A DNA stretch of 34,698 nucleotides from a virus. The DNA lies in the IMG/VR virus record IMGVR_UViG_3300049893_001119, positions 1-34,698 of that record; one strand, written 5' to 3'. Positions within the stretch are counted from its first letter, which is position 1. The number at the start of each line of letters is the position of its first letter. Shown piece by piece: positions 1-34,698 of the stretch. The notes beneath the pieces were generated by a model. That model saw only the letters and a list, made by a program, of their open reading frames with translations. It was not told the DNA's origin and did no database searches. The translations under genes and the position numbers were made by a program.

Positions 1-629
1 TGTTTTTGAAAATTCACTTGATTTTGAAAAACCGATCATAGATCAATTTGATGAAAAATATAGTGTCGATGATTGCATTTCAATGCTCAATGCGATTGGT
101 TTATCTCAAGTTCCATGCTGGGTTAGACCGATCAAAACTCTTTCCAATGGTCAAAAAGCTAGAGCAGAGGCCGTTTTAGAAATGTCTCGCGAAAAAGATT
201 TAGTAGTTATAGATGAATGGACCAGTGTAGTCGATAGAAATGTGGCAAAAGTTATGTGTCATTCAATACAAAAATACGCCAGAAAAAATAACAAAAAAAT
301 CATTTTGCTAAGTTGTCACTATGATGTTTTAGATTGGCTGTTGCCTGATTTTGTTATTGATTGTAATGAGCAAAAATATGAAGATCGGAGGTCGCTTCGG
401 CAAATTAGAAATGAAAAAATCGAATTTAATATCAGAGAATGTTCATCTAAAAAATGGAAACAATTTAGCAAGTATCATTATTTGAGTGACAATATGCCGG
501 GCGGTAAAAATTTTACATTTGGACTTTTTTTGAACGATAAACAAATTGGGTTTCAATGCTTTAGTAATTATGTGCCAGGTCGAACCGATATTTTACACTC
601 CAATAGAGTTGTCATACACCCTGACTACG
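1..629. repeat. Left copy of the terminal repeat (629 bp)
   Basis: Bases 1-629 align without gaps to 34070-34698. Bases 1-114 and 520-629 are identical in both copies; between them I count about 46 substitutions, mostly silent. The repeat shows that the molecule is circular or circularly permuted with a unit of 34069 bp. The differences suggest that two strain variants were assembled through the same locus, or less likely that the gene is duplicated. Confidence 0.9.
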
Positions 630-877
630 TTGGTTTTGGATTGGGTTTAAAAATGGCAACGGAGTGTTCTAAAATATTAAAAAATAAAGGCTATAAAATT
701 ATGGCCAAATTTAGCTCAATACCAATGTATAAATCTAGAATAAAAGATAAATCATGGAAATTTTTAGGTGCAAAAAATGATATGAAAAAATCACTAACTG
801 GCGGGGTGTTTGGTAAACAACCAAAGGCAGGATTTAGAACAAAAGTAACAACTTTTAGTTTTGAGTTTGTTGGTTGA
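2..877 (+). CDS. ABC-type ATPase fused to GNAT acetyltransferase (C-terminal part, 5' end at other window edge)
   Basis: The reading frame is open from base 2 and is the continuation of the gene that begins at 33873, because bases 1-629 repeat 34070-34698. Joined, the protein would be about 357 residues. In that numbering this part carries the ABC signature LSNGQ (113-117), Walker B ending in D137-E138 and the H-loop H172. From about residue 215 a GNAT domain follows, with a conserved YHYLS segment and the acetyl-CoA loop in HPDYVGFGLG. The Walker A lies at the other window edge. The architecture matches the COG2401-type 'ABC ATPase fused to a predicted acetyltransferase'; no membrane segments are present, so it is not a transporter. 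The stop overlaps the terS start (TGATG). The real role is unknown; modification of DNA or another macromolecule is inference. Confidence 0.85.
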   Translation, partial: VFENSLDFEKPIIDQFDEKYSVDDCISMLNAIGLSQVPCWVRPIKTLSNGQKARAEAVLEMSREKDLVVIDEWTSVVDRNVAKVMCHSIQKYARKNNKKIILLSCHYDVLDWLLPDFVIDCNEQKYEDRRSLRQIRNEKIEFNIRECSSKKWKQFSKYHYLSDNMPGGKNFTFGLFLNDKQIGFQCFSNYVPGRTDILHSNRVVIHPDYVGFGLGLKMATECSKILKNKGYKIMAKFSSIPMYKSRIKDKSWKFLGAKNDMKKSLTGGVFGKQPKAGFRTKVTTFSFEFVG

Positions 878-1257
878 TGGGAGTTCTTAGAGTGGCAAGA
901 CCAACGCTTTTTAGAGAAGAATACTGCCAAATGCTAATTGATCACATGAGCAAGGGACTTTCTTTTGAATCATTCGCCGCTGTTATTAATGTCAATCGCG
1001 ACACTCTGTACGACTGGCGCGCGCGTCATGATATATTTCTCGATGCCCAAAAGATCGGGCGAGAAAAACAATTATTAAACGATGAAATTATTCTAAACAA
1101 AGTTATTCGAGGCGAGCAAAAAAATAGCTCACCCGCCGTGCTGATTTTTAAAATGAAGAATTGCCATCAATGGAAAGACCAGCAAGATGTAAATGTAAAT
1201 GGTGGCGAGCCTTTCAAAATCGAAATCGTAAAAGATGAAAATAAAACTACTTCCTAA
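877..1257 (+). CDS. terS: Terminase small subunit (probable)
   Basis: A 126-residue protein directly upstream of the large terminase. The N-terminal part reads as a helix-turn-helix (residues about 10-50, with FESFAAVINVNRDTLYDWRA), as in many small terminase subunits, which recognise the packaging site on viral DNA and load the large subunit. The C-terminal half is mixed and charged, as expected for an oligomerisation and TerL-contact region. The ATG at 877 overlaps the upstream stop as TGATG; a TTG at 874 is the alternative. The end overlaps terL by 23 bases. The call rests on the helix-turn-helix and the position, not on a close sequence match. Confidence 0.75.
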   Translation: MGVLRVARPTLFREEYCQMLIDHMSKGLSFESFAAVINVNRDTLYDWRARHDIFLDAQKIGREKQLLNDEIILNKVIRGEQKNSSPAVLIFKMKNCHQWKDQQDVNVNGGEPFKIEIVKDENKTTS

Positions 1258-2452
1258 ACAGTACGATGTTATGCAATCGCTTGCGCCAAACATCTGTTAC
1301 CTTGGAGGAGTTGGAGCGGGCAAGACGCATATAGGCTCTGTCTGGATTTTGAATAAATGTAGTGAGAAATCAGTCGATCTAATTACGGCAAATACTTATT
1401 CACAATTACACAAGGCAACTTTAAAAGCAGTTTTTAAAAACTTTGATGAATGGAAAGTGCCATACACATACAATCAAAATGCTGGGCTATTAAAAGTGTT
1501 TAATCAAAAAGAATTTCTCTGCATGAGTATTGATGCCTATGACAATAACCGAGGAATCGAGGTTGGCAATTGGTGGGGAGATGAGGCGGCTTATTATTCC
1601 GAGGATGCGTACACCACAATGACGGGACGTAAAAGAGATAAACGAGGCAGATTGCAAACGCTTTTAACGACAACGCCCAAGGGTTATAATTGGCTTTATG
1701 ATCGATTCTCTTCTGGCGGTGAAAAACATAACCCAGAATTTTATCACTTAATTAATTGCAAGACAGAAGATAATTATCATTTGCCAAAAGAATATATCGA
1801 ATCACTAAAAGTTCAGTTCGATGAAAAATTAATTCAGCAAGAAATGCTCGGAGAGTTTGTTAATTTAACTCAAGGTAAAGTTTACTATGGTTTTAGTCGA
1901 GAGAAGTACGTTGTCGATTCTATTCCCGATCATGTTAAAACATTACCGATTTGGATCTCGATCGACTTCAACGTCGATCCATCAACTGCAATCATTTGGA
2001 GAGTTGGAGCGCATGAGGCTTGGGCGATTGATGAAGTATTTATGCGCGACTCAAACACGCCAGAGATTGCCGCAAAGTTAATTGAAAAAGGTTATCGCAA
2101 TGCAAATGTTATTGCAGATTCAACCGGAGCAAACAGATCAACAAAGGGCAAATCAGATCATATAATTTTAAGAGAAGCTGGTTTTAATGTAGTCCCTTTC
2201 ACAAACCCGCCAGTAATTGATCGCGTAAACAATATGAATAGACTTTTTAGCAAAGACACATTTAGAATATTGAGGACGCTGACCAAAACCATAAATGACT
2301 TTGAAAAAGTTTCTTGGAAAGGAACTGACTTAGATCAAAAAACAGATAAATTATTGACGCATTTATCTGACGGTGCTGGCTATCTGGCGTGGAAGTTATG
2401 GCCTATAAAAAGGGATTTTGACTACACAATATCAACCCAAAAAAGATTTTAA
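1235..2452 (+). CDS. terL: Terminase large subunit
   Basis: A 405-residue ATP-driven DNA packaging motor with a headful or cos nuclease. The Walker A is GGVGAGKT (residues 24-31), Walker B is in WWGDEA, and a TTTPKG coupling motif follows. The C-terminal RNase-H-like nuclease has its acidic residues in SIDFNVDPS, IADSTG and HLSDGAGYLAWKL. The length is on the short side of normal for the family. It follows terS with overlapping ends and precedes the portal gene, the usual packaging order. The motor works at the portal vertex of the prohead. Confidence 0.95.
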   Translation: MKIKLLPKQYDVMQSLAPNICYLGGVGAGKTHIGSVWILNKCSEKSVDLITANTYSQLHKATLKAVFKNFDEWKVPYTYNQNAGLLKVFNQKEFLCMSIDAYDNNRGIEVGNWWGDEAAYYSEDAYTTMTGRKRDKRGRLQTLLTTTPKGYNWLYDRFSSGGEKHNPEFYHLINCKTEDNYHLPKEYIESLKVQFDEKLIQQEMLGEFVNLTQGKVYYGFSREKYVVDSIPDHVKTLPIWISIDFNVDPSTAIIWRVGAHEAWAIDEVFMRDSNTPEIAAKLIEKGYRNANVIADSTGANRSTKGKSDHIILREAGFNVVPFTNPPVIDRVNNMNRLFSKDTFRILRTLTKTINDFEKVSWKGTDLDQKTDKLLTHLSDGAGYLAWKLWPIKRDFDYTISTQKRF

Positions 2453-24166: not shown

Positions 24167-24583
24167 TCATTCTTCCTCGCACAAAGTTATCTTGATTTTG
24201 TTGTTTTGCGTAGAGCATGAATCTTTACTTAAATAACAAAGCCCGCCGCTTTTTATGTTGTATAAATTACTGTCATTTACATATCGATAAAAAACCTTTC
24301 GCTTTTTCTTGGGCTTTTTTACTATCTCGTATCCAGTGATAACAAGCTCTCCCATCCAGCCTCTTGAAGTTGATGAAATATATTCAGCCCCAGTATTTAC
24401 CTGCCAAATAATGATCTTATTTTTTGCCCAATCAAGGGAAAATCTTAAAACCTTAACCGTCTTGCCCATGTTGCAGTTTCCGCATTTAATCGTGAACCCA
24501 TTGCGATGTGACTGCTCAATTTTTATTATTTTACCTTCGCCGCAAAATGGACAAGGCTTCAATTCAATTTTATTCTCTGTCAT
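24167..24583 (-). CDS. Lar-type zinc-ribbon protein
   Basis: A 138-residue protein. Residues 1-40 contain LKPCPFCGEGKIIKIEQSHR and CGNCNMGK, a four-cysteine zinc ribbon of the Lar (restriction alleviation) type. The C-terminal 100 residues include a basic KKPKKKRK stretch and are not recognised. The E. coli Rac Lar protein lowers restriction by type I systems; most phage homologues are untested. The start and preceding gene boundary repeat those at 26907-26940. Confidence 0.6.
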   Translation of the reverse strand: MTENKIELKPCPFCGEGKIIKIEQSHRNGFTIKCGNCNMGKTVKVLRFSLDWAKNKIIIWQVNTGAEYISSTSRGWMGELVITGYEIVKKPKKKRKVFYRYVNDSNLYNIKSGGLCYLSKDSCSTQNNKIKITLCEEE

Positions 24584-24596
24584 TTTTGACCTCGGC
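24563..24596 (-). repeat. Repeated gene boundary, copy 1
   Basis: A 34-base segment that covers the end of one gene (AEVKNDRE) and the start of the next (MTENKIE). It is repeated with one mismatch at 26907-26940, where the two genes outside it are different. It is a likely site of recombination that exchanges genes between boundaries. Confidence 0.8.
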
Positions 24597-25247
24597 TAAA
24601 ATATCAATTAGCAAAAAGATGCAATAGTCTTGTTGATCTTTTCTGGCAGCAGCAGCATTAGCAGCAGCAGCAGCAGCATAAGCAGCATAAGCAGCATAAG
24701 CAGCAGCATAAGCAGCAGCAGCAGCATCAGCATTAGCAGCAGCATTAGCAGCAGCAGCATCAGCATTAGCAGCAGCATTAGCAGCAGCATTAGCAGCAGC
24801 ATTAGCAGCAGCAGCAGCAGCATAAGCAGCATAAGCAGCAGCAGCAGCAGCATCAGCATTAGCATCAGCATTAGCAGCAGCATTAGCAGCAGCATTAGCA
24901 GCAGCATTGCAATGCTTTCTAATTTCATCCGTGTTAGACAAGTTGCCAGCTAATAAGTACTGAACACAATCTCTGACCCTCATATCATTAGGATTCTTGG
25001 CCTCAAAGATATGGGTCACGCTGGCTGCGCACTCAGCCGACCATTTGATTAAAACTTCTCTTGATAGTAAGTGTCGAGCCACCCATCTCTTGTCGTCAAA
25101 AGAAATATTATCCAGCAATAAAAAATCGACAAAATCGCCCTCAAATAAACTATTATTTTCAATCCAGTTTTTCCACCGATCAACGCATGGTTTTGTTGAT
25201 TTTAAAATTTCAGTATTAATTTTTGTACCTATAAATCTATTCTTCAT
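24570..25247 (-). CDS. Alanine-repeat protein (Imm-5-like putative immunity family)
   Basis: A 225-residue protein. Residues 1-112 form a non-repetitive helical domain with a WVARHLLSREVLIKWSAECA segment and MRVRDCVQYLLAGNLS. Residues about 113-200 are alanine with interspersed N, D and Y. The last 25 residues return to normal sequence. The same layout, an N-terminal domain with a conserved R.aC motif followed by A-rich helices, occurs in phage proteins of the 'putative immunity' type, whose function is not shown. Ala codons are almost all GCT. The gene overlaps the one upstream as ATGA and the zinc-ribbon gene by 14 bases. Confidence 0.65.
   Translation of the reverse strand: MKNRFIGTKINTEILKSTKPCVDRWKNWIENNSLFEGDFVDFLLLDNISFDDKRWVARHLLSREVLIKWSAECAASVTHIFEAKNPNDMRVRDCVQYLLAGNLSNTDEIRKHCNAAANAAANAAANADANADAAAAAAYAAYAAAAAANAAANAAANAAANADAAAANAAANADAAAAAYAAAYAAYAAYAAAAAANAAAARKDQQDYCIFLLIDILAEVKNDRE
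24646..24909 (-). repeat. GCT trinucleotide tract coding for the alanine repeat
   Basis: About 88 codons made almost only of GCT and of AAT, GAT or TAT. The tract is nearly a two-letter code, so length changes by slippage in units of three would keep the frame. The complementary strand gives long serine-rich false frames. Confidence 0.85.
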
Positions 25248-33253: not shown

Positions 33254-33282
33254 TTGACACGTTGCGGTTTTTAACGTCCAAT
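33254..33282 (+). promoter_or_regulatory. Rightward promoter of the ParB-like/ABC-GNAT operon, with operator-like repeat
   Basis: A perfect -35 TTGACA (33254-33259) and TCCAAT (33277-33282) are 17 bases apart. Between and touching them is the inverted repeat ACGTT (33259-33263) and AACGT (33273-33277), well placed for a repressor. The region 33207-33342 has no gene. Confidence 0.6.
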
Positions 33283-33342: not shown

Positions 33343-33873
33343 ATGGAAATCAAGTCTAAAGAGATCAAAATTGTCCCTATTGAGTCGATCATACCGAATC
33401 CAAAAAATCCGAACAAACACGATGAGTCACAAATAGACAGACTGTGTAAATTATTTGAGTTTCAGGGTTTCAGGCAACCTTTAATAATCTCAAACAGAAC
33501 AGGCTTTTTAGTATGTGGACATGGCCGCTTAATGGCCGCTCAAAAATTAAAAGTAAAAGAATTGCCAGTGATATTTCAAGACTTTTTAAGTGAAGCTCAA
33601 GAGTATGCTTTTTTAGTTTCGGATAACGAGATTGCGAGATGGTCCGAGTTTGACAAAATTAAAGCATACGAAGATTTAAAAGAAATTGATTTGGGTGATT
33701 TTGAATTACTTGGATTTGAAAAAAACCCTTATGAAATAAAAGAACTAAACAGCGAAGAGATTTCAGACTTTAAACAAGAAATTTTAGTTGTCATAACCTG
33801 CGTTGACGAGAATGAGCAATCGTCTTTATTCTCTGAATTTCAACAAAGAGGTTTAAATTGCAAAATTATCTAG
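33343..33873 (+). CDS. ParB-like (ParB/Srx-fold) protein
   Basis: A 176-residue protein. ATG at 33343 has AAAGGAAA upstream; a start at 33262 lies in the promoter. Motifs are NPKNPNKH (19-26), GFRQPL (42-47), VCGHGRLMAAQKL (58-70) and LVSDNEIARW (91-100). The C-terminal 30 residues (ILVVITCVDENEQSSLFSEF) form a small domain often found in phage ParB-like proteins that neighbour DNA methyltransferases. ParB/Srx proteins can bind DNA and hydrolyse nucleoside triphosphates, and some act as nucleases; no partner ParA is present. It overlaps the ABC/GNAT gene by one base (TAGTG). Confidence 0.85.
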   Translation: MEIKSKEIKIVPIESIIPNPKNPNKHDESQIDRLCKLFEFQGFRQPLIISNRTGFLVCGHGRLMAAQKLKVKELPVIFQDFLSEAQEYAFLVSDNEIARWSEFDKIKAYEDLKEIDLGDFELLGFEKNPYEIKELNSEEISDFKQEILVVITCVDENEQSSLFSEFQQRGLNCKII

Positions 33874-34698
33874 TGCATTTAAAATCAGATTCTCCAAAAT
33901 CGTTTCGTTGTCAAAAAGCCGCGAACTCGGTTGACTTAGATTTAGAAAAAAAATTAGAGCATAAATTAGAGATTCAATGCGACATTCAAACACCATTCAA
34001 CGTGGGATTAATTATTGGAGCTAGTGGGTCAGGCAAAACAACACTAGCAAAAAAAATTTTTGGTCAAAATGTTTTTGAAAATTCACTTGATTTTGAAAAA
34101 CCGATCATAGATCAATTTGATGAAAAATATAGTGTCGATGATTGCATTTCAATGCTCAATGCGATTGGTTTATCTCAAGTTCCGTGTTGGGTTAGACCGG
34201 TCAAAACGCTCTCCAATGGTCAAAAAGCTAGAGCAGAAGCTGTTTTGGAAATGTCGCGAGAAAAAGACATAGTAATTTTAGACGAATGGACTAGCGTTGT
34301 TGATAGAAACGTGGCAAAAGTCATGTGTCATTCAGTGCAAAAATACGCTAGAAAAAATAACAAAAAGATCATTTTGTTAAGTTGTCATTATGACGTTTTA
34401 GAATGGTTATTACCTGATTTTGTTATTGATTGCAATGAGCAAAAATATGAGAATCGGAGGTCACTTCGACAAATCAGAAATGAAAAAATCGAGTTCAATA
34501 TCAGAGAGTGTTCATCTAGAAAATGGAAACAATTTAGCAAGTATCATTATTTAAGTGACAATATGCCGGGTGGTAAAAATTTCACATATGGACTTTTTTT
34601 GAACGATAAACAAATTGGGTTTCAATGCTTTAGTAATTATGTGCCAGGTCGAACCGATATTTTACACTCCAATAGAGTTGTCATACACCCTGACTACG
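33873..34698 (+). CDS. ABC-type ATPase/GNAT fusion (N-terminal part, runs off the window)
   Basis: GTG at 33873 overlaps the ParB-like stop as TAGTG; a TTG at 33858 is the alternative, with AAAGAGG upstream. The Walker A GASGSGKTT is at residues 49-57. It is followed by an unusually short helical part, so the whole ATPase core takes only about 180 residues. The window ends inside the GNAT domain; the rest is at 630-877. In this copy Walker B is IVILDE instead of LVVIDE, and other changes are conservative, which shows selection on the protein. See 2-877 for the function. Confidence 0.85.
   Translation, partial: MHLKSDSPKSFRCQKAANSVDLDLEKKLEHKLEIQCDIQTPFNVGLIIGASGSGKTTLAKKIFGQNVFENSLDFEKPIIDQFDEKYSVDDCISMLNAIGLSQVPCWVRPVKTLSNGQKARAEAVLEMSREKDIVILDEWTSVVDRNVAKVMCHSVQKYARKNNKKIILLSCHYDVLEWLLPDFVIDCNEQKYENRRSLRQIRNEKIEFNIRECSSRKWKQFSKYHYLSDNMPGGKNFTYGLFLNDKQIGFQCFSNYVPGRTDILHSNRVVIHPDY
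34070..34698. repeat. Right copy of the terminal repeat (629 bp)
   Basis: Matches bases 1-629 without gaps; the outer 114 and 110 bases are identical and the middle differs at about 46 sites. This is the overlap by which the genome closes to a circle of 34069 bp. Confidence 0.9.

Follow-up and report, generated by a model that had tools for sequence, protein, structure and literature searches.

The ParB-like protein and the adjoining fusion of an ABC ATPase with a GNAT acyltransferase domain (ABC-GNAT) encoded on the virus record IMGVR_UViG_3300049893_001119 (IMG/VR) probably constitute a system for acylating phage DNA bases that takes over the role of Mom, with ParB as a partner, and confers protection against restriction. 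The whole record of 34,698 bases was analysed and is referred to below as the window. The evidence consists of the families and folds of the two proteins, the intact catalytic motifs, the linkage to ParB, the coupling of a C-terminal ParB tail to ABC-GNAT, and the exchange with Mom; the presence of Mom in the same slots of related phages suggests that the pair would attach a chemical group to phage DNA bases. For the ABC-GNAT architecture, a DNA-acylation function has already been predicted: PMC7824862, citing Iyer et al. 2013, describes a GNAT plus ABC ATPase predicted to acylate a DNA base in an as yet uncharacterised way, with QAX98348.1 as the example. What the present comparison adds is evidence for ABC-GNAT standing in for Mom.

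Gene Organization at the Contig Ends

The gene pair and the terminase genes lie on the plus strand across the two ends of the window, as follows.

33343..33873 (+): ParB-like ORF, 176 aa (Pfam, PHROG, AlphaFold model)
33858..34698 (+): ABC-ATPase/GNAT gene, 5' part (ABC and first GNAT part), running off the contig end
1..877 (+): ABC-ATPase/GNAT gene, 3' part, second allele, residues 72-362, stop at 875-877
874..1257 (+): terminase small subunit (TerS), directly 3' of ABC-GNAT (phrog_309, E 2.5e-15)
1235..2452 (+): terminase large subunit (TerL; PF03237, E 3e-14; phrog_2, E 1.8e-38)

Positions 34070-34698 and 1-629 showed 92.7% identity over 629 nt; the 46 differences lie in the inner part of this overlap, whose outer 114 bases on one side and 110 on the other are identical. 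The differences changed only nine residues, all conservatively, indicating that the ABC-GNAT gene is under purifying selection. A circular or terminally redundant genome assembled with two alleles was preferred over two separate gene copies at the contig ends, because of the identical bases flanking the divergent part and because a related contig (L009, ~80% DNA identity) has one copy, with ParB, ABC-GNAT and TerS in unbroken order. We read the contig ends as two alleles of one ABC-GNAT locus in the sampled phage population, so that the gene would continue at 1-877. The original prediction had completed the gene there: the continuation was supported by the overlapping ends and the order in L009, whereas a single sequence was not, as the two alleles differ at 46 of 629 positions. 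Several searches were run with a full-length ABC-GNAT sequence that combines both alleles. The predicted terminase neighbourhood held, with TerS and TerL following ABC-GNAT.

The ABC-GNAT gene starts at TTG 33858, which has a Shine-Dalgarno sequence, AAAGAGG, at 33845-33851 (6 nt upstream) and aligned with the ATG starts of Pmp13 and of a Psychrobacter pygoscelis prophage (L104) in a start-codon comparison. The one-base overlap first proposed for the two genes would require a start at GTG 33873, and this codon is GTA in L009; the overlap is therefore most likely 16 nt. Overlaps in the family are usually 16-22 nt (22 nt in 64 loci, 19 in 8 and 16 in 7). Nor was a strong shared promoter upheld, since a promoter scan returned no plus-strand site upstream of the gene pair and the TTGACA at 33254, with TCCAAT at 17 nt spacing, is weak.

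Domains and Motifs of ABC-GNAT

A single chain matched ABC_tran (E 5.7e-9) and Acetyltransf_1 (E 1.2e-4) in Pfam, and phrog_11143, a family without an assigned function, covered nearly its full length (E 1.2e-80). COG2401 is the label that the original prediction gave to this fusion type. At E 1e-12 no specific NCBIfam family was found for ABC-GNAT, and PADLOC gave generic ABC/ATPase matches only. Homology extended to QAX98348.1 of Aeromonas phage AsFcp_2 (31.8% identity over 89% of the query, E 8e-36) and to a protein of phage pT24 (36.8% over 80% of the query). The window protein shares the two-domain ABC ATPase-GNAT architecture of the family of Iyer et al. 2013, as cited by PMC7824862, and the exemplar QAX98348.1 is a full-length homologue.

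ParB and ABC-GNAT were modelled as separate chains, the latter with AlphaFold on the L009 protein, which is 90% identical to that of the window. In the model (pLDDT 92.6, pTM 0.87), residues 1-210 form an ABC fold that matches HrtBA-type ATPases with Z about 14.6. Residues 211-362 form a GNAT fold (Z 14.9) similar to that of many GNATs, among them the protein acetyltransferase RimI (Z 14.8). The ATPase motifs named in the original prediction were intact, as was the GNAT acyl-CoA loop.

34017..34040 (+): Walker A, GASGSGKT, residues 54-61; G54, S56, G57, G59 and K60 each 99% conserved in 103 homologues
34209..34223 (+): ABC signature, LSNGQ, residues 118-122; S119 and G121 invariant in 103 homologues
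34269..34286 (+): Walker B, IVILDE, residues 138-143; D142 and E143 invariant in 103 homologues
34386..34388 (+): H-loop histidine, H177; invariant in 103 homologues
34545..34550 (+): GNAT HY pair, H230-Y231; invariant in 103 homologues and weakly aligned with the HYS motif of Mom
629..646 (+): GNAT acyl-CoA loop, VGFGLG; canonical form Q/RxxGxG

The first position of the acyl-CoA loop is Q in most homologues (QxxGxG) and V in the window, and the GNAT residue R273 was also invariant in the 103 homologues. No membrane segment was detected in ABC-GNAT, the maximum 19-residue Kyte-Doolittle value being 0.99, in agreement with the prediction that the fusion has no membrane part. An ABC transporter was ruled out, as there is neither a membrane part nor a permease and the partner gene encodes ParB; in Gram-positive phages the gene is often mislabelled as an iron-siderophore ABC transporter.

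The ParB-like Protein and Its Tail

The ParB-like protein consists of a ParB/Srx N-domain (residues ~7-112, with the box GHGR at 59-62) and a C-terminal tail. It matched PF02195 (ParB_N, E 1.3e-6) and phrog_620 (E 1.4e-28), its N-domain matched the phage ParB/DNA-methyltransferase family phrog_498 (E 1.4e-33), and PADLOC returned a type II methyltransferase match (E 3.5e-18). The best PDB match of its AlphaFold model (pLDDT 89.7) was the CDP-bound ParB 6sdk (E 5.3e-8), and other CTP-type ParBs were also among the fold matches. The protein thus shares the N-domain fold of the ParB/Noc CTPases, but differs from them in having only the N-domain and a tail of ~43 residues; no complete HTH domain was present in the 176-aa model, which had only short helices after residue 112, and the canonical GxRR box was replaced in the window ParB by GHGR.

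By tail alignment and HMM, residues ~145-176 of the window protein form a tail of the kind tied to ABC-GNAT. In the family, this tail spans ~43 residues with the pattern VIVxCxDExxQxxLxxxLxxEGxxCKV. In Mu-like and Porphyromonas phages it is a separate ORF of 42-79 residues directly before ABC-GNAT, and in the A11-searched clade it was free-standing in 36 of 71 loci and part of ParB in the other 35. In five ParBs that do not neighbour ABC-GNAT, two of them paired with Mom, the tail gave no significant match (best E 0.047). The free-standing occurrence before ABC-GNAT, together with the lack of a significant match in these five ParBs, indicates that the tail is the constant partner of ABC-GNAT, and it is probably the part by which ABC-GNAT is docked.

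Two loci bear on how the tail is annotated and arranged. The ORF L015:2864-2992 of Porphyromonas phage011a, annotated as 'acr candidate', corresponds to a free-standing ParB tail preceding ABC-GNAT, which makes the anti-CRISPR label doubtful. In a Gemmataceae MAG (L132:7410-9110), ParB, tail and ABC-GNAT occur naturally as a single open frame.

Exchange of ABC-GNAT with Mom

In Psychrobacter phage Y8A the gene order is ParB, Mom (phrog_1384, E 1.7e-52), TerS and TerL, and in the prophage L104 it is ParB, ABC-GNAT, TerS and TerL, the arrangement of the window. The two are 76% identical over 102 aa of the ParB N-domain, 67% in TerS and 34% in TerL. At the DNA level they are alike over the first ~379 nt of ParB; the similarity then stops inside ParB and resumes in TerS, a break from which it follows that the C-terminal part of ParB and the enzyme were exchanged together. 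The sequences thus indicate that in Psychrobacter the tail and ABC-GNAT are exchanged as a unit against another ParB C-terminus and Mom. A second exchange was found in Porphyromonas, where one slot contains the tail ORF, ABC-GNAT and a formyltransferase in phage011a and a Mom homologue in the sister phage012a, between flanks of 90% identity (left 2.7 kb) and 81% identity (right-end 91 bp). ABC-GNAT is therefore seen to substitute for Mom in two unrelated phage groups, and these exchanges provide matched natural phage pairs for a direct comparison of modification.

Further parallels with Mom came from other phages. In Mu, Com precedes mom and activates its translation (PMC6483171), and in Mu-like phages a Com zinc ribbon (PF10122, E 8e-21 to 5e-6) was located upstream of the tail and ABC-GNAT. 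In Microbacterium phage Appa, the ParB gene overlaps the Mom gene. Together with the exchanges, these arrangements make DNA modification the most economical reading. The original prediction that the pair modifies phage DNA gained support from the exchange in two phage groups and from Com upstream, and the modification itself stands as a prediction from sequence. If it is correct, a widespread phage gene gains a function, as a second, ATP-using answer to the problem that Mom solves.

Mom is likewise a GNAT-type phage DNA-modification enzyme with an HY motif at an alignable position, but it has neither an ABC domain nor a tail partner, and its sequence similarity to ABC-GNAT is marginal. Against the Mom profile (phrog_1384), the window GNAT gave a weak PHROG match (E 0.0032) and Pmp13 an E of 0.092, while an hhalign profile comparison was collinear and not significant (E 0.087).

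A protein target is a rather unlikely alternative. The GNAT domain would then acetylate host RNA polymerase or a ribosomal or nucleoid protein during host takeover, with the ATPase as a regulatory module, as might be argued from the presence of RimI among the nearest folds and from the phage GNATs acetylating RNA polymerase that are described in PMC7824862. The Mom exchange in two phage groups, Com upstream and the ParB linkage point instead to DNA.

Distribution and Gene Neighborhood

The homologues came from phages, viral contigs and genomes, with hosts in the Pseudomonadota, Actinomycetota, Bacillota, Spirochaetota and Planctomycetota. Laboratory phages with the pair include LE3/LE4 of Leptospira biflexa, P335 of Lactococcus and Jace of Gordonia. 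Among the 295 loci with enough upstream sequence, which were picked for ABC-GNAT and not for ParB, a ParB ORF lay directly upstream of ABC-GNAT in 220, many of the loci being mutually related so that 220 is not a number of independent events. Elsewhere in the same 2.85 Mb, ParB occurred 15 times, equivalent to ~0.0045 expected per comparable slot. The pairing originally noted in the window was thus confirmed in 75% of the loci; about a quarter of the ABC-GNAT loci are without ParB. The pairings of phage ParBs with methyltransferases, as in the phrog_498 proteins, and with Mom suggest that ParB-like proteins may be a common platform for several phage DNA-modifying enzymes.

Many phage loci have TerL no more than two genes downstream (19 Terminase_6N and 14 Terminase_3 matches among 132 downstream proteins). 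This proximity and the ParB fold of the partner would suit a role in packaging or partition, in which DNA-loaded ParB and ABC ATPase would assist the terminase and the acetyltransferase would adjust this activity. We regard this role as distinctly improbable, because the cassette of Mu-like, Porphyromonas and other phages follows the tail genes, far from the terminase, and because Mom replaces ABC-GNAT beside the terminase without an ABC domain or tail.

An RNA target is more improbable still. TmcA is an ATPase-GNAT enzyme that acetylates tRNA, and ASCH-domain genes, relatives of the N4-acetylcytidine hydrolase YqfB, were observed among seven downstream proteins (e.g., L005:5097-5531 and L011:4114-4506), which would fit a tRNA or mRNA acetyltransferase. 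The ParB linkage, the Mom exchange and an ABC domain in place of a helicase-type ATPase all speak against it. TmcA resembles the window protein in that an ATPase is fused to a GNAT whose presumed target is the amino group of a base, but the window ATPase is of the ABC and not the helicase type, and it is encoded by a phage gene linked to ParB.

In one clade, 53 of 61 loci have a formyltransferase gene (PF00551) immediately after ABC-GNAT. Formyltransferases after ABC-GNAT were located as follows.

L007:5092-5709, L015:4116-4589 and L016:1823-2473: formyltransferase, PF00551
L156, L157, L176 and L188-L267: formyltransferase, PF00551

This downstream gene hints, speculatively, that the transferred group may carry a formylatable amino group. 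Other neighbours include an aspartate decarboxylase (a source of beta-alanine) near ABC-GNAT in three unrelated loci (L013:4098-4523, L171 and L115) and an asparagine-synthase match downstream in one locus.

About 30 of 333 loci encode ABC and GNAT in different frames, nearly always -1, with an overlap of about 80-150 nt. The split falls at the ABC/GNAT linker in the following loci.

L005, L011, L012, L019, L032, L268-L278, L283, L291, L296, L299
L300, L302, L307, L309, L332, L339, L341, L342

Most of them carry T_TTT_TTN or A_AAA_AAN at the linker and lack a GNAT-frame start codon, which suggests programmed -1 frameshifting; alternatively, the split may reflect phase variation or homopolymer errors. 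In the literature consulted, no description was found of the ParB and tail linkage, the Mom exchange, the operons with Com or formyltransferase, or the frame split, some of which Iyer et al. 2013 may contain.

Proposed Mechanism

In the DNA acylation that we favour, the GNAT domain would take an acyl group from acyl-CoA and place it on an exocyclic amino group of DNA bases. The ABC domain would spend ATP to engage or distort the DNA, presumably by dimerising in a nucleotide-driven manner, and so make the base accessible; TmcA may serve as a rough analogue. The original prediction had the ATPase drive DNA scanning or domain switching. ParB would bind ABC-GNAT through the C-terminal tail and load or direct it on phage DNA, possibly acting as a CTP-dependent clamp. 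Expression would precede packaging, a timing suggested only by the gene order beside the terminase, and the modified phage DNA would withstand host restriction. In a more elaborate version, an ATP-driven pathway of its own to hypermodified DNA, a ParB clamp carries ABC-GNAT, which adds an amino-bearing acyl group to the base, a GAR-transformylase-like enzyme formylates this group in one clade, and in some phages -1 frameshifting determines how much ATPase alone is made relative to ATPase-GNAT; taken as a whole, we consider this version unlikely.

The window contains a second candidate anti-restriction gene at 24167-24583 (minus strand), encoding a Lar-like restriction-alleviation protein (PF14354, E 2.5e-9). 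Palindromes of 6 bp are under-represented in the window (394 observed against 580 expected), which may be taken as a sign of past restriction pressure. Given the Lar-like gene and this palindrome avoidance, any protection by the pair would be incomplete. The product of 24570-25247 (minus strand) bears a weak resemblance to Imm5-like immunity proteins (PF21805, E 9.8e-5), with a score under the curated threshold.
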